36,529 nt of DNA, taken from a virus. Both the position numbers and the translations under genes were made by a program. The notes below the pieces were generated by a model, which did no database searches, had not been told where the DNA came from, and saw only the letters and a program-made list of their open reading frames with translations. Location of the stretch: positions 1 through 36,529 of the IMG/VR virus record IMGVR_UViG_3300043602_000222; one strand, written 5' to 3'. Of the stretch, positions 2,557 through 24,848 are shown piece by piece. Every line of letters starts with the position of its first letter. The first letter of the stretch is position 1.

Positions 2557-3756
2557 CTATCCGAAGTACGTGATGATGACCGCGCCGTCGTGGCCATTGC
2601 CGCCCGGTGAGTTGATGCCTGCGGCCGAACCGCCGCCCGATCCGCCGGCGCCGAAGCCGACACCAGGCATCGATGAGCCGGTCGACATACCGCCACCGGC
2701 GCCACCTTCAGGCCCTGGAGACATGCCGCCGAGGCCGCCGTAGCCGGTGTAGCCGCCGGCGAGATTGGTGCCTGACGCGCCCGACGAACCGTACGCACCT
2801 TGCAGATTGATGTCGCCGCCGTAGCCCATGCCCGGAATCGACAGAGAAGGCGTGCCTGGGTACTCAACAGAGCCAGCCATACCTCCACCGCCGCCGGTCG
2901 CCATGATCGTGCTAGCGAAATAGCTTGTGCCGCCGCTGCCGCCGTTGGTCACCGTGCCAGCAGCACCAGAAAGCCCGCCTGCGGCGACGGTGACAGACAG
3001 TGCAGACCCTGGAGTGACTGCGATATACTCTCGCGCGTAGCCAGAGCCGCCACCGCCCGCGCCACCGTTGTAGGTGACCATCGCGGTGCCGCCGGCGCCG
3101 CCACCGCCATAGACTTCACCCAGGATCGAATGGACGCCAGCAGGCACATACCAAGTGTAATTTCCGGGTGTCTCGAAACGAGCCTGCTGCGGGAATCCAA
3201 ACTGTGAGGCGACCGTGCCGGTGATGTACCAGCCTTCCGTGCCGCCGCCACAGAGAACGCCCTTGTACATAATCTGAACTGGAATGTTGGCCAGCAAGTC
3301 GCCGGTCTTCATCGGCTGGCCATCGTTGCGCAGCACCGGACGGGTGCCCAAACCGTCGACGTTCAGATAAACCGCTCCGTTATTGTCGGTGTTCGGAATG
3401 ACCGTCAGCGTCATGAAGTCGTTGTAGCGTGTGGCGGGTGGATCGAGAGCCAGTGCATAAGTCCCAGGACCTCCTGTCATACATCCTCCGCGCGGGAGGC
3501 CTCTCTGGATCAGATAGCGTGCCGATAACTGCACCTGATCAAGCACACTACAATCGTAGGTGACTTCACCTTTGTTAATCAGATTGATCAACTCAGCGAG
3601 CATGGCGTTCGCCGCCGCCGGATCAAACCGCGGCTGACAACGGGAGGTCGAGTACCAGAGTTCATTACAGTTCTGCAGCGACTGCTCGATGTCGCTGGGA
3701 ATGCTGTTCTTGGCGTCGGTCCACGGTACGCCAGAGTCGGGATGCATTGCAGTCAA
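2557..3756 (-). CDS. Tail fibre/adhesin with C-terminal glycine-rich domain
   Basis: This 399-residue protein has three parts. Residues about 25-90 form a Cys-containing helical module (NCNELW, RCQPRFDP, NAMLAELINLINKG, YDCS) that is also found in the protein encoded at 6578-6982. The middle (about 95-190) is beta-rich. From about 195 a glycine-rich adhesin domain begins with FETPGNYTWYVPAGV, then GGGGAGG-type runs to the end. Such domains form polyglycine-helix sandwiches in phage adhesins such as S16 gp38 (known of the family), so receptor recognition is the likely role. The start chosen is TTG at 3756, with GGGAG eight bases upstream; an ATG nine bases later is the alternative but sits far from the ribosome site. 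Confidence 0.82.
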   Translation of the reverse strand: MTAMHPDSGVPWTDAKNSIPSDIEQSLQNCNELWYSTSRCQPRFDPAAANAMLAELINLINKGEVTYDCSVLDQVQLSARYLIQRGLPRGGCMTGGPGTYALALDPPATRYNDFMTLTVIPNTDNNGAVYLNVDGLGTRPVLRNDGQPMKTGDLLANIPVQIMYKGVLCGGGTEGWYITGTVASQFGFPQQARFETPGNYTWYVPAGVHSILGEVYGGGGAGGTAMVTYNGGAGGGGSGYAREYIAVTPGSALSVTVAAGGLSGAAGTVTNGGSGGTSYFASTIMATGGGGGMAGSVEYPGTPSLSIPGMGYGGDINLQGAYGSSGASGTNLAGGYTGYGGLGGMSPGPEGGAGGGMSTGSSMPGVGFGAGGSGGGSAAGINSPGGNGHDGAVIITYFG

Positions 3757-5627: not shown

Positions 5628-6578
5628 TCAGTCCTTTGTTGCGATGATGACGTCGACGTAAGCGACGCGCATATCAATGTTGTGGCTGTGCGCAAGGCCG
5701 GCACCGTTGTTATAGATGTACTTGGTGAAGCTGAATTCATAATCGGTACCGCCGCCCCAGAATGAATCACTGGAAACGGACGATATCGGCGGACTACTTG
5801 AACCAGCCTTGTTAACACCGAGTACACCCGCATAGGTCTGCGGGACCGTTGCAGCCACTAGCGTAGTTGTATCGGTACCGGTCCTGCCAAACAGCGTCGA
5901 GAACGCAACAGAACCGGCCAACGCACCGCCAGTTGTTCCAGTAATGACGCGCAGAGCTTTATTGTTGACGTCGGTGCGTTTCGTCCACCCGACCGGTGCA
6001 GCCGCATTCGCGAATATCATCGCGGTGCCGGCCGCAAACAGGACCGGCACCACGCCGCTGTCCTTGAGCACCTTACCGGTCGCGCCGGCGAATACCGCAA
6101 TATGATCTGCGACAGACGACGCCGGACCGACAACATTGCCGGACGCTGCTGGGCCACCGTCCAGCAGAACTTTACCCGACGTATCAGCGAAGAGCGCGAC
6201 GTTACCAGCAGCCGCCGTGATCGGGCCGACGACGTTTCCGAGTGGGATGCCGCCGCCAGTGACGCTTACGCCGTTGACTTGGACCCACTGCTGAGTATTT
6301 CCATCATCATAATATAGCCAAAGAATTCCGGTGTCAGTCTCGTACCAAAGTGCGCCCTGATTCGGGTTAGACGGTGGCTCTTGCGTAGTAGCCGCAGTTG
6401 CGGCGTGAACCGCAGTGACGTCGAGCAACAGTTTCTTGCCAGAGGGATCAATATCTGTCGGCACGCCAACCCACAGCCGAGTGGGGTTGCGCATCTCGAT
6501 GGAAAGTTCACCTGGATCAAGATTGGTCGGTGGCTTGTTCGGTGCTGCCGTACGATGGATTCGAATTTTCTGTGCCAT
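5628..6578 (-). CDS. Tail fibre with GNVVGP repeats and collar-like C-terminus
   Basis: This 316-residue protein starts with MAQKIRIHRTAAPNKPP and ELSIEMRNPTRLWVGVP, a common N-terminus of phage fibres. An SNPNQGALWYETDTG segment follows. Two tandem repeats of about 30 residues share GNVVGP..(A)..VALFA..SGKVL.DGG, a known fibre-repeat pattern. The C-terminus runs MIFANAAAPVGWTKRTDVN to LAHSHNIDMRVAYVDVIIA, a tail-collar-like domain with the PxGW and HSHN signatures. It overlaps the upstream gene by TGATG. Inferred role: a fibre or collar structural protein at the baseplate. Confidence 0.85.
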   Translation of the reverse strand: MAQKIRIHRTAAPNKPPTNLDPGELSIEMRNPTRLWVGVPTDIDPSGKKLLLDVTAVHAATAATTQEPPSNPNQGALWYETDTGILWLYYDDGNTQQWVQVNGVSVTGGGIPLGNVVGPITAAAGNVALFADTSGKVLLDGGPAASGNVVGPASSVADHIAVFAGATGKVLKDSGVVPVLFAAGTAMIFANAAAPVGWTKRTDVNNKALRVITGTTGGALAGSVAFSTLFGRTGTDTTTLVAATVPQTYAGVLGVNKAGSSSPPISSVSSDSFWGGGTDYEFSFTKYIYNNGAGLAHSHNIDMRVAYVDVIIATKD

Positions 6579-6982
6579 CAGAAGTATTCCCCACCGTCGA
6601 CTTCGACGAGTCTAACTGGGTCCGCCGCGCTACCGTCACCAGCCAGTTCCGGCGGCTGCACGTTTATGTGCTGGCCATTCGCCGCCCACCAAGTGAAGGC
6701 CGTGCACAGGTTCTGTACTGAGGCGCAATTCCACGGACCGTTCGGGTCAAAGCATTCGGCAAGCGCGATCAATTCAGAAACGATGGCGTTGATCTGCCCC
6801 GGCTCGATTCGCGCTTCGCAGGTCGTCGGCAGCGCCGTAAGTTCACACGTCGAGATGAAGGTTGGCGGCGGCGCATAGGCATTGGTGACGTCAACAGGAT
6901 TGAGCGCGACGCCGGCAGCATCGCGATAGACGACTGCACCGCCGGTAACGAGACTAGGGAGAATGCCTGTGCTCGTAGCCAT
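6578..6982 (-). CDS. Putative baseplate/fibre-attachment protein (134 aa)
   Basis: This small protein has six cysteines. Its central module (FISTCELTALPTTCEARIEP, then NAIVSELIALAECF and WNCAS) matches in pattern the N-terminal module of the glycine-rich fibre encoded at 2557-3756. Shared elements are C-x(7-8)-C-x2-R, (E/D)P, NA(I/M), ELI and a later (W/Y)-x-C. The start at ATG 6982 overlaps the upstream stop (TGATG). It probably adapts fibres to the baseplate, an inference from the shared module and the position directly after the gp48-like gene. Confidence 0.72.
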   Translation of the reverse strand: MATSTGILPSLVTGGAVVYRDAAGVALNPVDVTNAYAPPPTFISTCELTALPTTCEARIEPGQINAIVSELIALAECFDPNGPWNCASVQNLCTAFTWWAANGQHINVQPPELAGDGSAADPVRLVEVDGGEYF

Positions 6983-7923
6983 CAGCAGCACCTGAAGATG
7001 TTGTTAGGGCAGTTCGATGGAAGCATCGAGCGAACGATACATTCCGCCGCGAGAACCCCAGGCCAAATCCGCGCCGGTAGTCCAGCAGCGGTATCGCAAG
7101 CTCGATCCCAGTAAGCTTGGATCTTTGGCGGCAGTTCTTGCGTCGTGCAGACGTCGCCGTCATCGCAACCGTAGATCCAATCCTGCGTGTAGCAAATCTC
7201 GAACGCGATCTCGCTCCGGTCGCACGGAGAGTCGCAAGGTTCGAGCGGATTGAGCGGTGGACTCTGATCCGGATGCGGCGGATATTTCGCAGTGAGCTTC
7301 GCCCCGAGCGGCTCGATCACCCAGTTCAGCCCGCACAGGTTCTTGATCACGCCCATCTGCGCCCTAGTCAGCGCGATCGCAATGTTGCGCTTGATCGCAC
7401 AGAGAAGCTCATCGGAAAATCCGGGCGGGCAAAAGACTGGTCCGCACTCAGTGTGGATCTCGTACGGCGTGATGTCACCGAGCAGAACGGCGCGGCAATG
7501 CTGCAGATAGCAGTCTTCCCACTTCAACTGTTCCAAGTGATTGTCGATAGTTGTGATGGCGGTATAGGGATTTGACTCACGCAGCGCGACCCAGAGCGGA
7601 CCGTGGACGTAAGATCGCAGCTTCAACACGGTATAGATCGAATGCAAGATCAGCGACGGGCAGTTTGGATCTTTGACCAGCGGACATTGCGAGACGTCGT
7701 CGCTGACCTGGAAGTACTCGATCGCCTTGCGCTTCCAATGGTCCCACAGTGGCCCGGACGGCAGTAGCTGGAAGAAATTGACGAACGTGCAGCAGAGGTC
7801 ATTTCCGCACAGCGGTGGTGCGCAGCAATAGTACCAATCGTTATGCTTGACGTCCTGGCAACCGTCGGCGGTCAGCACATTCTCGATGCCGAGCCGCTCC
7901 ATATATTCATAGGTGTCGGTCAT
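6982..7923 (-). CDS. Gp48-like distal baseplate protein, extremely Cys-rich
   Basis: The position directly after gp46- and gp47-like genes matches Mu gp48, a baseplate protein at the fibre end; the assignment rests mainly on synteny. The 313-residue product has 24 cysteines by hand count, including YYCCAPPLCGNDLCC near the N-terminus and a terminal FRCC. The segment FVNFFQLLPSGPLWDHW resembles the LLPxGxxW signature of the gp48/YmfQ (DUF2313) group. The long middle is helical, and pairs of Cys flank most predicted loops. ATG 7923 overlaps the baseplate J stop (TGATG). A Cys load this high is not usual for the family. Confidence 0.75.
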   Translation of the reverse strand: MTDTYEYMERLGIENVLTADGCQDVKHNDWYYCCAPPLCGNDLCCTFVNFFQLLPSGPLWDHWKRKAIEYFQVSDDVSQCPLVKDPNCPSLILHSIYTVLKLRSYVHGPLWVALRESNPYTAITTIDNHLEQLKWEDCYLQHCRAVLLGDITPYEIHTECGPVFCPPGFSDELLCAIKRNIAIALTRAQMGVIKNLCGLNWVIEPLGAKLTAKYPPHPDQSPPLNPLEPCDSPCDRSEIAFEICYTQDWIYGCDDGDVCTTQELPPKIQAYWDRACDTAAGLPARIWPGVLAAECIVRSMLPSNCPNNIFRCC

Positions 7924-9152
7924 CAGCAGGGTAGTCCGGTCTGCGGTAAGTTGAAGCTCACCTCGTTGATGCACGGCAGGACGTCGCACTCCGGCTCAAT
8001 GCAGCAACCCTCATTGATGTAGACCAGCTCGCGGGGATACGGCGGCTTCTTGTCCTCGTAGCCTGGTATCTCGAACCGGGCCGCGGCGTTGATCTCGGCG
8101 CCGATCACAGCTGCGATGATCAGCTCGATCTGCTTGGCGCACAGTGGTATCGACGGGCAGATCCGCTGGAATAGCGCGCGGATGTCATTCTCGATCAGCT
8201 GCTTCTGCGCCACGCTCGGACAGCCGGCGATGTCGATGATGACGTTCACCGGTAACGGCTTGGGCATGAACACCTGGCCGCAGACACCGATCTCGACCTG
8301 GCCCTCGCCGTAGCCCTGGTGCTCGCCAAACATCCATTTGGTGATGTCGTCGACAATGTTCTGCGGAGGAATGCCGCAAGGAAACGCGGTGTCGAACATC
8401 ACGTAAAAATTCATGTTGTTTCCGCAATTTTTACAACCACAATCCTGGCTGCACTCACAATCCGGATTGCAGCGGCAGCACGAGCCCTCGCGGATGCACA
8501 CCCTGGTCGCGCATGGAAACTCGAGAAATTTTTCTTTGATCCACGCCATGGTGGCGCGAGGGTGGTAGGCGAGCCGGTTGAGATAGCGCTTGCGGAATGT
8601 TTCGCAGTCTTCCTCTTCCGCTCCACCACAGAATTGCCCGCCGCATATCTGCACTGTTGCATCGATGTTCGGCGCTGCGGTGGTCAGCGTACCTTCGGTG
8701 ACGGTACCGCCTGCGTTCATCTGCGGACCCGGTGTCATCGCCCGGATGCGAACAATGACCTCACCCTGCTCTGACAACTCCAGCGGGATCGAGCCGGTGG
8801 AAACAAAGATGCCGAGCGTAGTGCTGACCTCAAAGTAGGCCGGCACCGGAGTATGCGGCACGCCGGTTAGCTTGGCGTAGCCCTCGGCATGTGCCGGTGG
8901 CCGCGGGAACACCCCGTGCTGCGCTGCCATGATGTAAAGATTTTCGCAGCATGCCGTCTCGGGGTTGCGCTCCCGCCACATCTGATCCGCCACGGCGTAA
9001 AACTGCTCGGCCGCGGCGTAGTCATTGGCGATGACGTACCATTCATTGGACTCAGGGATGACTTTCCCACCACCGAGAACGGTGTTGGAAAACGAATTTC
9101 GCAAGCGGTCGAACAGCACCTGCGGTTCGGGTCGGAGAATGACGCATGCCAT
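7923..9152 (-). CDS. Baseplate J-like protein (Mu gp47 type) with Cys-rich insert
   Basis: The 409-residue length and position (after gp46, before gp48) fit baseplate J/gp47, the wedge protein of contractile tails. The N-terminal half has a typical J-family beta core (HTPVPAYFEVSTTLGIFVST, then AMTPGPQMNAGGTVTEGTL). ETFRKRYLNRLAYHP matches the conserved ExxRxRxLxxL region. Residues about 214-243 then carry a dense cysteine cluster (CIREGSCCRC, NPDCECSQDCGCKNCG) not expected in this family. Total cysteines are about 26. Start ATG 9152 lies just past the gp46 stop; an upstream in-frame extension to 9191 lies inside gp46 and is rejected. Confidence 0.87.
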   Translation of the reverse strand: MACVILRPEPQVLFDRLRNSFSNTVLGGGKVIPESNEWYVIANDYAAAEQFYAVADQMWRERNPETACCENLYIMAAQHGVFPRPPAHAEGYAKLTGVPHTPVPAYFEVSTTLGIFVSTGSIPLELSEQGEVIVRIRAMTPGPQMNAGGTVTEGTLTTAAPNIDATVQICGGQFCGGAEEEDCETFRKRYLNRLAYHPRATMAWIKEKFLEFPCATRVCIREGSCCRCNPDCECSQDCGCKNCGNNMNFYVMFDTAFPCGIPPQNIVDDITKWMFGEHQGYGEGQVEIGVCGQVFMPKPLPVNVIIDIAGCPSVAQKQLIENDIRALFQRICPSIPLCAKQIELIIAAVIGAEINAAARFEIPGYEDKKPPYPRELVYINEGCCIEPECDVLPCINEVSFNLPQTGLPC

Positions 9153-9156
9153 TGGT

Positions 9157-9723
9157 CTAGCGCCATATCCAGGACTCAGAAACGAACGCACCAGATAGAT
9201 CGATGCGGGTTCGGCCGGTCGACGTCACGGTGTCGATCACGACATCAACGTGGCTTTGTCGGTGATAGACCGCGTGCACCACGACCGATTGGATAATGCC
9301 TTGGGCAATCAACTTACCCATGTCAGCGCGGATGGCCGCCTCGATCGCCTTCACCGCATCTTGACAGCGGGCGTATAGCTTCTCCGCGGCGTTCCACAAC
9401 GTCGAGCCGATATAGAACCATTCACCTTCACGAAAGAAGGATTCTGACCAGTGGCCGTACACCGAGGCTGGGCTCGGGCAGGGCCGATCGTTGCGCGCCC
9501 GCGTGTTGAGCACGTTGAGAATCAGGCCGCGCACCCACTCGTCGTTCGAAATGGTCCGACCAATCTCGGCGCGGGTCACCTCATCCTGTATATAAACATA
9601 CTCGAGGCCGGGGATTGCACACTGATAGCCGCACATATCGTGATCACCGCAGGCTTCTGGCCTGGTGGTCCAGAAAATGCGACGACGACCTACGTCTTTA
9701 TCTAAGCAAGAGGCGTCATCCAT
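9157..9723 (-). CDS. Baseplate protein, phage GP46 family (gp25-like)
   Basis: This 188-residue protein lies between gp45- and gp47-like genes as in Mu. Family members are small lysozyme-like-fold proteins that link the tube end to the wedge. Visible here are NDEWVRGLILNVLNTRARND, the family's early conserved block, then AAEKLYARCQDAVKAIEAAI and the C-terminal SHVDVVIDTVTSTGRTRIDL. Six cysteines are present, four of them in the first 35 residues. The start overlaps the gp45-like stop by eight bases. The C-terminus ends in WIWR. Confidence 0.82.
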   Translation of the reverse strand: MDDASCLDKDVGRRRIFWTTRPEACGDHDMCGYQCAIPGLEYVYIQDEVTRAEIGRTISNDEWVRGLILNVLNTRARNDRPCPSPASVYGHWSESFFREGEWFYIGSTLWNAAEKLYARCQDAVKAIEAAIRADMGKLIAQGIIQSVVVHAVYHRQSHVDVVIDTVTSTGRTRIDLSGAFVSESWIWR

Positions 9724-10490: not shown

Positions 10491-11861
10491 TCATTGATCC
10501 TCAAACCAAGGTGGCAGCATCAGCGGTGCATCGCGCTCGTTCTTGTCATCCTTCTCGTAATCCTCGGTGACGCCTTTGGCTTGGGCCTCGACCAACGTCA
10601 TCTGCGGCAGCTCGCTGAGCATCGGCGGGCACCACGGCTGCGGATATTCGTCTGGCTTCAGCTCGATCCCGGCCTGCGCGCGGCGCGCACGACCGGTATT
10701 AAAATCGATCTTGTCCAACCCGTAGCCGACGCCGCTGCCACCAGGACTACTGCCGCCACCTCCACTGGATGGAGGTGGCGAGAGGATCAGTGTGGTCTTG
10801 AGTTCCTTGTGGGCATCGACGTGATAGGTCAGATCGATGCACTCGAACATGTCGAAGATGCCTTCGGGTGGCACCTCAACATAATGGACATTCCCGATGT
10901 CCCACGGCGCGCCGGATGGCGACTGCACATGAAACACCTCGATCGTGATCTTCTTACTTTCGGAGCTGCGCTTGTTCATTTCGAACCGTGCGCGTCGCTC
11001 CAACTCCATGTCAGTGGCATCGCCGTTATGCTGCACGGTGTGCGGCACGAAGTCCTTGACCCAGGAGTCCTTTACTTCTTTGTAGGTTTTAAGCAGGGCT
11101 TCCTCACCCCATTTTTTCTTCTCGGTGCGTTGGCCCTTGGCTTTGACCTTGCTCTTGGCTTTATCGTCTGACTGTTCAGCAGAAAATCGTAGAATGTTGT
11201 AGCCAAGGATGAGTGCATCACCACCACCTCCAGGACCGACGCCATCCGTGACCCGTAATTTTCCGTCGCGCGTCTCATACATGAAGTAGCAATTTTCGTT
11301 CTGGACCCGGTTGAGTTCGTCAACCACGCGGGCGCCGTCACGAAAACGCACCTTGTCGAGCTTGATCACTTGTCCAAGCCATTCGACCTGAGTCTTGAAC
11401 GGCTCCACCAACTTCTGGACCACATCTTTCGTGGTCGGCTTCATCATGTTTGTGGTCGGATGCTGGTGCGAACTATCGACCAACCGTCTGGTCTTACCGC
11501 GTGCCACGATTTTAACCGTGTATTCGTTTGGGCCGATGTTGACGCTCATCGAGCCGCCACCCTCGCCGCTCGTGCCTTCGGTCTCCTGTCCGCCAGAACT
11601 GTCTGCCGTTCCCTTGTCGCCGGTATGCGCGCCGGTGCCGGTGCGCGCGTCGACGTAGCCAGTGAACGCTAGCTGACCTGCGATGTAGACTTGGATAGGA
11701 GCGCCAGCTTTTGCCGCCACCAGGATTGGCTTGCTCGGCGCGGCTCCGGCAAAGATGGTGACCGATAATTGACCAGTTAGATTCTCTTTCTTGCGATTGA
11801 GCGTCATCTCCGTCCAAGTTTCGATCGGCCCGCCGCCGCAGGTAATAACAACCGGTTTCAT
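10491..11861 (-). CDS. Baseplate hub protein, Mu gpP (gp44)-like
   Basis: The 456-residue protein starts MKPVVITCGGGPIETWTEMT, the usual entry of gpP/T4 gp27-type hubs. An IQVYIAGQLAFTGYVDA strand and then a glycine-rich loop (SSGGQETEGTSGEGGGS) follow. The hub signature GPNEYTVKIVARGKTRRLVD is near residues 110-130, with FKTQVEWLG and QNENCYFMYETRDGKLRVTD later. The C-terminus has a long glycine/serine linker and a charged tail. It shares an ATGA overlap with the N-like gene. The ring it forms should sit between tube and spike (family knowledge). Confidence 0.85.
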   Translation of the reverse strand: MKPVVITCGGGPIETWTEMTLNRKKENLTGQLSVTIFAGAAPSKPILVAAKAGAPIQVYIAGQLAFTGYVDARTGTGAHTGDKGTADSSGGQETEGTSGEGGGSMSVNIGPNEYTVKIVARGKTRRLVDSSHQHPTTNMMKPTTKDVVQKLVEPFKTQVEWLGQVIKLDKVRFRDGARVVDELNRVQNENCYFMYETRDGKLRVTDGVGPGGGGDALILGYNILRFSAEQSDDKAKSKVKAKGQRTEKKKWGEEALLKTYKEVKDSWVKDFVPHTVQHNGDATDMELERRARFEMNKRSSESKKITIEVFHVQSPSGAPWDIGNVHYVEVPPEGIFDMFECIDLTYHVDAHKELKTTLILSPPPSSGGGGSSPGGSGVGYGLDKIDFNTGRARRAQAGIELKPDEYPQPWCPPMLSELPQMTLVEAQAKGVTEDYEKDDKNERDAPLMLPPWFEDQ

Positions 11862-13126
11862 CTCGGGATGTAGGCTGGTTGGATCGGGAAAATGCGGACA
11901 TGTCCGCCGGCGGCAGGACCACCTGGCGTCAACCCGACCACAAGTTGTTGGAAGCGCCCGTTGGCGTCGACGATATTGGTCTGCTCAAGCTCACGATGGC
12001 GCTTGGCGTCCTTGTAGAGGACATACGACGCGATCAGCGGATGCACGCCACCGCTATAATCGACGATGACCCGACCCGGCAGCCGGTAGGTCATATCGTG
12101 CATCATCTTGCTGAATTCGACCGCGTAGCGCTTGATCTCCAGGAAGAGCCCGTTGTTGCATTCGTCGTAGGCGATCCTGGCCTCGTCCTCGAACACCTTG
12201 AGGACTTCCTCCATCGCCGCCAGGCCCTCACCGAGGTGCCGGTACTTCCGGCCCATTGCCGCTTCCGCCATGCCGATGGCGCTGAGAAGGCGATGACGAC
12301 TGAGCACCGCCTCTTCGCTGGTCTGCGCAACGTGCACTGGATGATATGACGTGAACGAGGCGAAGTTCACCAGGCTGCGGAAAATCTTATAGCGGCCGTC
12401 GGCGTCCTGGATCTTGCTGGAGATAAACTTGAAGCCAGTGAACAGCGCCTCCTCGACTTTCTCCGGATCGGAGGCGAGCCCGTCGTCCTCGGCCACATCC
12501 TCCATGGCTAGCGCGGCGCGCCACTCATTAGTCGATGACTGCGCAGTCAGAGTGTGAACTGTCACCTGGGCAACGGCAGCGACCAGGCTCTGGGCGCGAT
12601 TGATAACGTCAACACGCCACGGCTGCGCCACCAACTTGGGTGTGTATTCCGCCAGAAATGCTTCCCGCGAAATATCATTGAGCGGGCTGATGATAATGCC
12701 ATAGAGCGAGGCGAAGCCGGGGCCGGAGGTTGGACCGCTGACGCCGATGCCATTGGCCTCAACGAACTCCATCTCAACAGTGGTTTCGCCGGCCTCTTCG
12801 AGATTGTCCTTAACTTTGACCGAGCGACAAGCGGCCAGAACAGTGCCGCGAGTCGGATGCACCAGCGGACCCGGGCCCGGCGACTGGCAAGCCTGAAACA
12901 GCGAGTGGCTGTCGAAGACGTGATCATCTGCACGAAACACCGCGGTGAGATGATAGACTTGGATCTTACGACCGAGATCGGCGTAGGCGGTGATTTCACC
13001 GAACGGAAATTCACCTTCGGCGCCGCGGCGACCACCTTCGACGTCAACCTCTTTGCATTGAAAGCCGACACCTTTGAATGATGCCGGGACATAGTCTTTG
13101 CCGATGGCGCAGTTATGTTCCGACAT
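11858..13126 (-). CDS. DNA circularisation-N domain tail protein, Mu gpN (gp43)-like
   Basis: The N-terminal 130 residues match the DNA_circ_N domain: YVPASFKGVGFQCKEVDVEG, GRRGAEGEFPFGE and LHVPKG-type elements (here GPGPLVHPTRG), with EFVEANG closing the domain. The rest is mainly helical (AMEEVLKVFEDEARIAYDEC). The C-terminus runs ANGRFQQLVVGLTPGGP, consistent with family members that end in a short beta segment. It immediately follows the tape measure stop (TAAATG), which is the Mu order. In Mu-like tails the protein sits at the distal tube as a hub or baseplate component. Confidence 0.87.
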   Translation of the reverse strand: MSEHNCAIGKDYVPASFKGVGFQCKEVDVEGGRRGAEGEFPFGEITAYADLGRKIQVYHLTAVFRADDHVFDSHSLFQACQSPGPGPLVHPTRGTVLAACRSVKVKDNLEEAGETTVEMEFVEANGIGVSGPTSGPGFASLYGIIISPLNDISREAFLAEYTPKLVAQPWRVDVINRAQSLVAAVAQVTVHTLTAQSSTNEWRAALAMEDVAEDDGLASDPEKVEEALFTGFKFISSKIQDADGRYKIFRSLVNFASFTSYHPVHVAQTSEEAVLSRHRLLSAIGMAEAAMGRKYRHLGEGLAAMEEVLKVFEDEARIAYDECNNGLFLEIKRYAVEFSKMMHDMTYRLPGRVIVDYSGGVHPLIASYVLYKDAKRHRELEQTNIVDANGRFQQLVVGLTPGGPAAGGHVRIFPIQPAYIPR

Positions 13127-17144: not shown

Positions 17145-17609
17145 TTAGGTCACTCCTGGCGGAACGTACGGGACCGGGAAGGTCGCCGAGAGTTCGTCCG
17201 CGTTGGGCTCAAGCGTGCCCTCAGGCAGCATTTCGTCGATGATCCGGAACACGATGGTCATCGCGACTTCGTGGGTGTCCGACTTCTCGTCACCGGTACC
17301 AGTGCCGCGCGCTGCAGAGTAGACGAGACCATTGTAGTACTCGACCTGCAGTGTGACGTCAGAGCAGCCCTGGTACATCGAGAGCGGGATGCGGATGTCG
17401 CGGATCACGTTGATCTCGACCTCCGGATTGGTTGGCACGCGCTTGACGTAGCCCCATGGCAGAGGCTCGTTGTTGTAGTTGCACAACCGCCATGTCGGCA
17501 GTGTGTCGGTCGCGAGGTGATGCGAAATCGGGCCGTACACGGCATCCGTGTCGCAATCTTTAAAAGTGAGCAGGATATTCTTGACGCCCACTTGGTTTGT
17601 GCAGGTCAT
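17145..17609 (-). CDS. Tail tube protein (Mu gpM-like position)
   Basis: The 154-residue protein lies after the sheath (with one inserted gene) and before the chaperone, the Mu order for the tube. Sequence shows MTCTNQVGVKNILLTFKDCD, then YVKRVPTNPEVEINVIRDIR and STRAIGHT beta patterns to DTHEVAMTIVFRIID, compatible with the tube beta-barrel fold. Four cysteines are in the first two-thirds, which is more than is usual for a tube. The ribosome site TAGGAG is nine bases before ATG 17609. The call rests on synteny and size. Confidence 0.78.
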   Translation of the reverse strand: MTCTNQVGVKNILLTFKDCDTDAVYGPISHHLATDTLPTWRLCNYNNEPLPWGYVKRVPTNPEVEINVIRDIRIPLSMYQGCSDVTLQVEYYNGLVYSAARGTGTGDEKSDTHEVAMTIVFRIIDEMLPEGTLEPNADELSATFPVPYVPPGVT

Positions 17610-18442: not shown

Positions 18443-19966
18443 TTAGTAGCAGTTGTCCAGCAGTCTCGGCTGGGCGTTGACGTGGATCTTGCGGATGCGG
18501 CACGGTGGCCGATAGATAAAGTTCACCCACAACTTGCCGCAGACACCTTGGCATCGCGGAGCGACTTCGAAATCGGTGCGAAGCTGGATGTCGTTGTCGA
18601 GGTCGTCGAACTCACTGAACAAGACGCCGACGTGAGCTTTCGCCCAAGTGCGGATCATCCCGAGAATGAGCTTGGGGTTGGTGCCTCGGATGCCCGGAGG
18701 AATCGTCGTGTTCTTGGTGAACAGTCCGAGCCCAAGCACCTTGCCGAGTTCGAGCGCCATCTGATCGGCGGTCACCGCGGCGAGACGGCGGGAGCTGACA
18801 TCCCACCAGGTCGAGTTCAACCGCATATCGTCGTCGTAGCGGTTGTTGGTGCTGTCGTTGACGATCATCGGCGAGGTCAGATGACCGGTGCCGCCTTGAT
18901 ATGGCACGGTCACGACGAAACCGGTGGCCTGCAGGATTTGCTGCTCCTCATAGGTGAAGCACTGGAAGCAGCTCTCCGGGATGTGAACACAACGCAGGAT
19001 GCCAAAGTCCGGCCCTTGGATGTTCATTTCCGGATGGTCAACCGCCAAGCAGCAAGACTGCGCAGCATAGGCAGCGACCTTCATCCAACCAATCGCGGGG
19101 TCAGAGCAGCAATGCGCGAGACGGCTGACCTCGGCCGAGTTTGTGTCGCACGACATGATCTCGCCAAGCGTACCAGTATTGTACGTGTATCCGTGGCCGA
19201 AGCATTGTGGCTTGCTACAATCCCAGGCACTGGCGATGTACGCGATCATCGCATCCTGCCAGAGAGTATCGTCGTAGAGCATCCCGATGCAGCAATAGCA
19301 GCACTCGCCGAGCAGGGCGATGTAATCGAGATGCTGCACTGGTTCGTTCAGACCAGCGAAGGTCTGAGCAAACGCAAAGTCGATACCCTTAGGAGCGTAA
19401 TCACGCCGTTCATGCCAGTTGTAGTAAACCTGAAGGCAATTACCAACCGTGCCTGCGTTCTTGGCACGGATGGTGATAACACCGCCGGCGTTCGACATGA
19501 CCTCGAACGGCAGGCCAGGCTCGCGCGCTAACGCATCTCCTACGATCGTGGCGACTTCGTCGGCCGTGGTACCCAACACGACCCGATCCGATGTACGCCA
19601 ACGCCCGTCGCCCAGGTACAAGTCGACGCGACCGTAGGTGGTCGCCGTGCCTGTGAAGGTCAGTGTGTACGTAGCCTTCTGGGTGGCACCGACGGATGCG
19701 TCCTTGCGAGGCAGTGCATAAAAGTCGAGCGCGTTGTTGCCGCAGCAAATGAACGCAGTCTTGAGGCCTTCGGCGATGACCGAGCCCTCACCAAACTGCT
19801 CATTGACGTCGCGCAGCGATGGCATCTTAAGCAAGACGCCGTCCTGTGCGATGCCGGTGTCGAGCATCTGACCTTCGATCAAAATGCGACACTTGTTGGG
19901 ATAGACGTTGAGGCTGGGATCGAAGCAGATCTCGATCGCGCCGCTTCGTAGACTGTCAATCGACAT
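18443..19966 (-). CDS. Contractile tail sheath protein (Mu gpL-like)
   Basis: The 507-residue protein has sheath hallmarks. The middle has a variable beta domain (KATYTLTFTGTATTYGRVDL, then VIGDALAREPGL-type text with RIKAKNAG, here GVITIRAKNAGTVGN). The C-terminal third has GIRGTNPKLILGMIRTWAKA, LFSEFDDLDNDIQLRTDFEV and INHRP-like NFIYRPPCRIRKIHVNAQ, which match Mu-type sheath conserved blocks. It holds 23 cysteines by hand count, among them GECCYCCIG, AHCCSD and QSCCLA; ordinary sheaths have few. ATG 19966 has GAAGGAG upstream. Contraction around the tube drives infection (family knowledge). Confidence 0.9.
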   Translation of the reverse strand: MSIDSLRSGAIEICFDPSLNVYPNKCRILIEGQMLDTGIAQDGVLLKMPSLRDVNEQFGEGSVIAEGLKTAFICCGNNALDFYALPRKDASVGATQKATYTLTFTGTATTYGRVDLYLGDGRWRTSDRVVLGTTADEVATIVGDALAREPGLPFEVMSNAGGVITIRAKNAGTVGNCLQVYYNWHERRDYAPKGIDFAFAQTFAGLNEPVQHLDYIALLGECCYCCIGMLYDDTLWQDAMIAYIASAWDCSKPQCFGHGYTYNTGTLGEIMSCDTNSAEVSRLAHCCSDPAIGWMKVAAYAAQSCCLAVDHPEMNIQGPDFGILRCVHIPESCFQCFTYEEQQILQATGFVVTVPYQGGTGHLTSPMIVNDSTNNRYDDDMRLNSTWWDVSSRRLAAVTADQMALELGKVLGLGLFTKNTTIPPGIRGTNPKLILGMIRTWAKAHVGVLFSEFDDLDNDIQLRTDFEVAPRCQGVCGKLWVNFIYRPPCRIRKIHVNAQPRLLDNCY

Positions 19967-23449: not shown

Positions 23450-24150
23450 CAGAACGCCTCGGGATCGTACTGCCGCCAAGTCTCGATCGCGCCGCTCGCC
23501 AGCGCGATGTTATTGCTACCCATCAATCCCTTGGTCGAGTTGTCTTCCTTGTTACGCACGGTGAGCAAAATGTCGCCAGGGTGCTCAAGAATCCAAGCAA
23601 CGAACTGCAACATGCCAAGCGTAATGCCTTTGGGCACATCGTCTGGGCATTTGTAGCCAGCCTTGTAAGCGGCCATCATATCGATGTTGAGGTGATGCGA
23701 CGCGCACGGATCGCAGCAATTCGTCAGATCGATGAAGCCGGTCCAGATCGGCACATGGATGGTGCGGGTATTGGCCGGTACACGAATGGCGTGATTGGCG
23801 TTAACGTTCTGGCTGCCGTAGAGATGCACGAGCCCATCAGCAACCGGATACTTGAGCTTGTGCTTGTAAGTCAGCTTGCCAAATTTAGGCCGCGCCGGTC
23901 CTTGGATCGGCTCGGTGACAGTCATCTGCGTGGTCAGCAGCGCGCCGGTATAGAGTTCGGCAGCCTCGACCGCGGCCCGGCGATAGAGGTCCAGCATCTC
24001 GTCAGAGACGCCGGCGACATCATCGGTCTTGGTATGCTGTCGGATGAGTTCGATCGATAGCAACGTCGACCAATCCAACGGCTCCTTGTGCCCCACCGGT
24101 AACGGCGAGGCAAAACGATCCTTGGGTGGCTCAACGACAAAAGTCAGCAT
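23449..24150 (-). CDS. Head-tail connector (gp6-like adaptor)
   Basis: The 233-residue protein has a gp6/adaptor-like helical pattern early on: LSIELIRQHTKTDDVAGVSD, then EMLDLYRRAAVEAAELYTGA. A beta region follows (IHVPIWTGFIDLTNCC), then a C-terminal helix (ITLGMLQFVAWILEHPGDI). A CCDPC motif is near residue 160. ATG 24150 overlaps the stop of the Ig-like gene by seven bases; an in-frame stretch to 24204 is rejected because it lies inside that gene. The protein likely forms the first ring under the portal. Confidence 0.78.
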   Translation of the reverse strand: MLTFVVEPPKDRFASPLPVGHKEPLDWSTLLSIELIRQHTKTDDVAGVSDEMLDLYRRAAVEAAELYTGALLTTQMTVTEPIQGPARPKFGKLTYKHKLKYPVADGLVHLYGSQNVNANHAIRVPANTRTIHVPIWTGFIDLTNCCDPCASHHLNIDMMAAYKAGYKCPDDVPKGITLGMLQFVAWILEHPGDILLTVRNKEDNSTKGLMGSNNIALASGAIETWRQYDPEAF

Positions 24151-24848
24151 TGCACGATCCGCACATCGACACAGTCGACGTGGTAGTAGCAGTTGCAGTC
24201 GCAATCGAGCGCGCCTTGACGAACGGTAAGCCGGAAAATCTGGCAGGTTCTCGCCGCCGGCGACACCGTCAGCGGCAAGGTCACCAGGTATAGACGCTGA
24301 TTGACGATGGGCTTGCCCACGGTCAAATCCCAGGTCGAACCCACGTTAGCCGCGGGGATGCCGACGCCGAACAGGACTTCGAACACCACCGGCTGATTGT
24401 GCCCGTCGCTGACCGAGACGAAGCAATTGTCAGGACCGACATAGCCCTGCACCGGCGTGTAGGTGAAGGTGCCGTCCGGCTTGAGGTCGAACTTGCCATG
24501 CTGCGTGCCGTACAGCAGCAGCGGCTTAAAGGTCAGCGCATCGCTTTCAGGATCAACGACGAAGGTCTTGAGATCGTCAGTGAGCGGCGTATTGGGCGTG
24601 ACGTCGAACTCGGTATCAGACGACGCAACCGGAGGAAGATTGCCAGTGGTGATGACATCACAGGTTTTCTTCTCCTCAACCGTGACGGTCGGCTCGCAAT
24701 GCAGTCCGCGCAGCGCGATCGGCGCTGCCCAACCGGCATAGTTGAGATACAGCGGCTGCGTCTCGCCCGGCTTAAGCGAGATTGTTTCACAGCAACAAGT
24801 CACGCAGCCATCGGACTGCATCGGGCTGTCGATCGTCAAAGCCAGCAT
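24144..24848 (-). CDS. Ig/cadherin-like structural protein with terminal Cys clusters
   Basis: The 234-residue protein has a bacterial Ig/cadherin-like domain at about residues 70-150: NLPPVASSDTEFDVTPNTPL, DPESDALTFKPLL, GKFDLKPDGTFTYTPVQGYV and FVSVSDG. These match the P-x-A-x-x-D ... DPDGD-L ... G-x-F-x-YTP ... D-x-F-x-Y-x-V-x-DG pattern. Thirteen cysteines occur, clustered at the ends (GCVTCCCE; CDCNCYY and DCVDVRIVQC). Phage Ig-like domains often decorate virions and bind cell-surface sugars (known of the family). Here the gene lies between the capsid cluster and the connectors, so head or neck decoration is the inference. Confidence 0.8.
   Translation of the reverse strand: MLALTIDSPMQSDGCVTCCCETISLKPGETQPLYLNYAGWAAPIALRGLHCEPTVTVEEKKTCDVITTGNLPPVASSDTEFDVTPNTPLTDDLKTFVVDPESDALTFKPLLLYGTQHGKFDLKPDGTFTYTPVQGYVGPDNCFVSVSDGHNQPVVFEVLFGVGIPAANVGSTWDLTVGKPIVNQRLYLVTLPLTVSPAARTCQIFRLTVRQGALDCDCNCYYHVDCVDVRIVQC

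Follow-up and report, generated by a model that had tools for sequence, protein, structure and literature searches.

The IMG/VR virus contig analysed here, a stretch of 36,529 nucleotides referred to below as the window, encodes a baseplate protein of the J/gp47 type in which ten cysteines are crowded into a single loop. What are these cysteines for? The first-pass annotation of the locus regarded the cluster as a metallothionein-like insert that might bind several metal ions or cross-link wedge subunits. We consider it likely that the cluster is an enlarged form of the fibre-anchoring loop of baseplate wedge 2 (BW2), and that it forms part of a disulfide network in a tail of the Milano/7-7-1 type.

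A cysteine-rich loop in a baseplate wedge protein

The BW2 gene product (Table 1) belongs to Pfam family Baseplate_J (PF04865; E = 8.6e-14, better than the curated cut-off) and to PHROG 6 (baseplate wedge), and Foldseek matches to J-type chains support a J-type fold. The GTG start listed for this gene, at position 9191, probably lies upstream of the true one; we prefer the ATG at 9152 because it aligns with residue 1 of BW2 from both Milano and 7-7-1. This ATG lies a few bases past the stop codon of the gene for baseplate wedge 1 (BW1), an arrangement that is also found in Milano. The protein contains 26 cysteines among its 409 residues (6.4%), and exactly ten of these, at positions 214, 219, 225, 226, 228, 232, 234, 238, 240 and 243, fall in residues 214–243 (CATRVCIREGSCCRCNPDCECSQDCGCKNC), in agreement with the original count of ten or more. 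When the protein was shuffled with its 26 cysteines kept, ten cysteines in any 30 residues arose in 19 of 100,000 shuffles.

In a structure model of BW2 with a mean pLDDT of 85, the loop is located past the helix formed by residues 202–209 and between strands 217–220 and 247–252, which bears out the proposed placement after the J-family helix. Confidence is low at residues 230–242, with pLDDT below 50 in the loop, and a second prediction built with 44 sequences did not improve it (pLDDT again below 50). A frame error, which the first-pass annotation had named as a possible source of the cluster, is ruled out by the pattern of codon substitution and by recurrence of the loop in relatives. Relative to a 94%-identical sequence, the loop carries four synonymous and no non-synonymous codon changes, and relative to an 89%-identical sequence it carries 14 synonymous and two non-synonymous changes. 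These substitutions indicate a coding loop that is subject to purifying selection.

Table 1. Tail genes and cysteine codons in the window. Residue numbers are those of the window proteins unless stated otherwise.
Feature	Position	Strand	Basis or remark
BW2 gene (J/gp47-type), 409 aa	7923..9152, stop included (7926-9152 without stop)	minus	ATG at 9152
Cys-rich loop of BW2, residues 214-243	8424..8513	minus	alignments; counterpart of Milano gp29 212-234
C219 (loop), candidate disulfide partner of C332	8496..8498	minus	perfect co-distribution
C226, equivalent to Milano Cys224 (bonded to short-tail-fibre Cys38)	8475..8477	minus	alignment
C243, equivalent to Milano Cys234 (bonded to BW2 Cys395/Cys282)	8424..8426	minus	alignment
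C259, candidate disulfide partner of C394	8376..8378	minus	perfect co-distribution
C332, candidate partner of C219	8157..8159	minus	perfect co-distribution
C394, candidate partner of C259	7971..7973	minus	perfect co-distribution
BW3 (baseplate wedge 3), orthologue of Milano gp30	6982..7923	minus	phmmer 9.6e-41; overlaps BW2 stop codon
BW3 co-occurring Cys pairs	7399-7401/7165-7167 and 7192-7194/6988-6990	minus	column-pair analysis
Fibre anchor, 137 residues; N-terminal module of Milano short tail fibre gp31	6578..6991	minus	profile match
C58 of fibre anchor, equivalent to Milano short-tail-fibre Cys38	6818-6820
Tail fibre protein with second anchor-module copy at N-terminus	2557..3756	minus	profile match 2.8e-6; PHROG 863
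BW1 (GP46 family; Milano gp28)	9157..9723	minus	PHROG; Milano homology
Spike	9716-10504		gene order as in Milano
Hub	10491-11861		gene order as in Milano
Baseplate centrepiece, BCP (Milano gp25; DNA_circ_N)	11858..13126	minus	Pfam; Cys 5 and 318 conserved
Tail tube (Milano gp21)	17145..17609	minus	Milano homology
Tail sheath (Milano gp20), 23 Cys	18443..19966	minus	phmmer 2.2e-143

Orthology with a disulfide-linked tail

A phmmer search of the PDB with BW2 recovered 9rku (E = 1.1e-94) and 8fqc, which contains Milano gp29 (E = 4.1e-94), and BW2 of these same two entries gave the best structural matches to the model. The window protein is an orthologue of BW2 (gp29) of the Agrobacterium phages Milano and 7-7-1. 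It shares 40% identity over the whole chain with Milano gp29 (PDB 8FQC) and 7-7-1 gp110 (PDB 9RKU), with gene order and loop position alike. An orthologous tail gene block of the Milano type (Schmittlotzvirus-like) is present in the window, where the order tube, tape, BCP, hub, spike, BW1, BW2, BW3, fibre is that of Milano. The fold and the Baseplate_J family are also shared with ordinary J/gp47 proteins (Mu gp47, phiCD508, pyocin PA0618 and T4 gp6; Mu 9ki1, E = 2e-20).

Disulfides crosslink the tail subunits of Milano; the evidence comes from cryo-EM, supplemented by mass spectrometry for some of the sheath bonds (Sonani et al., 2024; PMC10811340). This tail does not contract in guanidine unless DTT is added (PMC10811340). 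For 7-7-1, nearly identical folds have been reported, together with a disulfide network of the capsid (PMC12796354). In the cryo-EM table for Milano, gp29 Cys224 is bonded to Cys38 of the short tail fibre (STF), and Cys234 to Cys395 or Cys282 of a neighbouring BW2 copy (PMC10811340). Both Cys224 and Cys234 lie within the counterpart of the window loop. The bonded cysteines of Milano gp29 at positions 3, 68, 224, 234, 282, 302 and 395 are all present in window BW2, whereas Milano Cys367 aligns with a Gly next to window C383/C384. The window loop is longer than that of Milano and carries ten cysteines rather than four.

Distribution of the loop

Scans of viral contigs yielded 45 and then 67 loci. 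A scan of genome contigs with a single sequence found no relative, and a scan with an alignment found one, in Bradyrhizobium lablabi; none was found in a search of 195 other Bradyrhizobium genomes. In B. lablabi, the related tail operon is located at about 70–87 kb of a 303 kb bacterial contig (NZ_LLYB01000081.1). This position suggests that the locus is a prophage and that part of the clade has a rhizobial host range. Two Synechococcus phages, Ssp-JY38 and Yong-L2-223, also belong to the clade, and Ssp-JY38 retains the cysteine network; a literature search on Yong-L2-223 found nothing relevant. BW2 of these phages is 47% identical to the window protein and is encoded in the same operon. The C219–C332 pair of the window is present in Ssp-JY38, but the loops of both phages are shorter and do not have the CxxC...CxxC knuckle pattern.

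Among 50 distinct full-length relatives, the loop carries 4–10 cysteines: four in the Agrobacterium phages, six in Ssp-JY38 and eight to ten in most others, with single-step shifts (8, 9, 10) in places. The number and spacing of these residues vary among relatives; C219, C228 and C240 are each present in 37–41 of the 50 sequences, and C232, C234 and C238 are variable. By comparison, five generic J proteins (from Pannonibacter, Roos, Yersinia, Mesorhizobium and Citrobacter) have no loop and only 0–2 cysteines in the whole protein. Recurrence in relatives rules out a loop peculiar to the window protein, and its absence from the five outgroup proteins rules out a loop general to J proteins. The initial view of an insert foreign to baseplate J proteins, and the opposing case that it raised of a cluster general to the family, each hold in part: the cluster is missing from the ordinary J proteins compared and general in the Milano-like clade. 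On the aligned sequences, the cysteine loop is a feature of this clade that has been expanded in the branch to which the window belongs.

Counterparts of bonded cysteines elsewhere in the tail

Outside BW2, the cysteines that form inter-chain bonds in the Milano tube, centrepiece, wedges and fibre are mostly kept. For BCP and BW1–3, the bonded positions that the window keeps are also conserved in nearly all of the roughly 40–48 relatives covered for each protein. BW1 retains Cys 3, 22, 32 and 74 and not 29 and 41. BW3, whose open frame contains 24 cysteines (7%), retains the partner positions 22, 23, 75, 130, 147 and 206 and not Milano Cys69. All four disulfide cysteines of the tube (3, 19, 43 and 82) are kept in the window and in Ssp-JY38, the two phages compared for this protein. 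In the alignment of the anchor module, STF Cys29 is kept in 39 of 39 rows and Cys38 and Cys67 in 41 of 41; STF Cys 84, 102, 127 and 144 are not seen in the module. This module begins many different fibre proteins of the clade, and the open frames that it heads in relatives range from approximately 90 to 820 residues, a pattern that swapping of fibres onto a constant anchor would give.

Two of the positions that are not kept, BW1 Cys41 and BW3 Cys69, bond the tailspike in Milano (PMC10811340). They are mostly gone across the clade as well. With Milano, 7-7-1 and the Synechococcus phage set aside, a search for the N-terminal module of the Milano tailspike found it in only one of 17 records, and it was not detected in the Synechococcus phage either. 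Between the capsid and sheath genes of the window, a 234-residue frame (24144–24848) contains 13 cysteines (5.6%); its product may belong to this disulfide network too, as a neck protein or one that joins head and tail.

The sheath differs from that of Milano at one bond. In Milano, C47–C182 must break on contraction (PMC10811340), and the cysteines of this lock are conserved in 7-7-1 and OLIVR4 (PMC10811340). Both ends are absent from 25 of 25 non-Milano sheaths compared (the window, Ssp-JY38 and uncultured relatives), and the window sheath has K and R at the two positions. The remaining sheath cysteines listed as disulfide-bonded do not vary: Cys 14, 216, 244, 327, 467 and 501 are kept in 25 of 25. 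From this comparison, the C47–C182 lock appears to be particular to the Agrobacterium phages.

Co-occurrence of cysteines

Gain and loss of cysteines was traced by parsimony on one quick tree, built without the loop columns and without four Cys columns, and each column was coded by whether a sequence has the residue found in the window protein; the BW2 tree was also applied to BW3. This procedure is informative only for cysteines that vary, and invariant partners lie outside its reach. Tree-based sign tests on independent pairs gave no significance, as too few supported pairs were available, and a control over column pairs was used instead. Of 28,164 BW2 column pairs in which both columns change four or more times on the tree, a single one matches perfectly, and this pair is C219–C332. 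Lowering the threshold to three changes (39,506 pairs) adds one further perfect match, C259–C394. In BW3, where the strongest cysteine co-occurrence was seen, one of 24,228 column pairs is perfect, a Cys–Cys pair with 12 changes, and a second Cys–Cys pair with 12 changes has a single mismatch. C228 and C240 of the BW2 loop also co-occur, with one mismatch and few changes. In addition to C219–C332, window BW2 differs from Milano gp29 in a co-occurring pair, C234–C384, that is restricted to the window lineage.

Because cysteines have been gained and lost in twos over many lineages, these patterns favour disulfides. Together with the bonds in the loop of Milano gp29 and the conservation of their positions and partners, they lend support to the early suggestion that the cluster cross-links wedge subunits.

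Metal binding and drift as alternatives

Co-occurrence by itself would equally fit two ligands of one metal. A partial Cys4 zinc site can be proposed in which zinc-ribbon-like knuckles, C225xxC228 and C240xxC243-G, stabilize the loop in the reducing cytoplasm while the other cysteines still form disulfides. A CxxC...CxxC pattern occurs in 40 of the 50 distinct sequences (it is absent from the Milano group, Ssp-JY38 and others), C228 and C240 are the pair that co-occurs with one mismatch, Gly usually follows C243, and the loop connects two strands. We nevertheless regard such a site as the less likely reading, given that the Milano counterpart of C243 sits in a disulfide (PMC10811340). The stretch between the knuckles is also highly variable, with pLDDT below 50 in two models, the loop has no Pfam match at E ≤ 10, and in a PDB sequence search a consensus-like loop of the clade matched only BW2 of Milano and 7-7-1. 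A related scheme, to which we give little credence, would make the fibre joint a redox switch: C225, C228, C240 and C243 would hold zinc during assembly and then form inter-chain disulfides in the oxidized virion, and reduction on the host side would free the fibre and baseplate and trigger the lock-less sheath.

The metallothionein comparison fares worse. By eye, the spacing CC.C...C.C...C.C..C is similar, and a flexible number of cysteines is also a property of metallothioneins; but no metallothionein family was matched in the Pfam search at E ≤ 10, the PDB matches lead to Milano-type BW2 and nothing else, and cysteine spacing varies among relatives. Moreover, C226 and C243, which are conserved, align with residues that form disulfides in the solved homologue, and C219 co-occurs with a residue outside the loop (C332). 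A literature search on metallothionein-like tail proteins of phages found nothing relevant, and we judge a multi-metal store or sensor on the virion to be highly improbable. Equally hard to credit is the view that the extra cysteines reflect drift in a Cys-rich lineage, with no function outside the four positions that Milano also has. The abundance of cysteine in BW2, BW3 and the sheath (26, 24 and 23) and the variability of C232, C234 and C238 are what drift would produce, but the cluster exceeds what the protein's own composition yields on shuffling, and C219, C228 and C240 are both widely kept and co-occur with specific other cysteines.

A proposed disulfide staple at the fibre joint

Under the favoured explanation, the loop cysteines of BW2 would form disulfides after assembly, once the surroundings become oxidizing. 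C226 would bond C58 of the fibre anchor, C243 would bond a neighbouring BW2 copy, and C219 would bond C332 in the body of BW2. The remaining residues C228, C232, C234, C238 and C240 may form bonds within the loop or to neighbouring chains; strict pairing within the loop would not give the single-step changes in cysteine number (8, 9, 10), a point against this explanation. In this manner, the loop would staple the fibre and the inner and outer copies of BW2 into one covalent cage, and we infer that the baseplate could open only after at least partial reduction of this cage. No phage-encoded thioredoxin or glutaredoxin, as candidates for forming or cleaving such bonds, was found in 20 records, with controls working.

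Implications

The disulfide-linked tail is an already known system; what is new are variations on it, namely the enlarged loop, the pairing of its cysteines and the absence of the sheath lock. Contractile tails held by disulfides have been described from a few Agrobacterium phages and interpreted as an adaptation to the rotation of flagella. This cysteine network now extends to about fifty mostly uncultured phages, to a Bradyrhizobium genome and to Synechococcus phages. To our knowledge, Synechococcus sp. PCC 7002 has no flagella, so the explanation from flagellar shear offered for Milano may be too narrow. The joint appearance and disappearance of cysteines yields predictions of particular bonds that are open to test. 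As the sheath does not have the C47–C182 lock, redox control in the wider clade would be expected mainly at the baseplate and fibre joints, where the BW2 loop sits.
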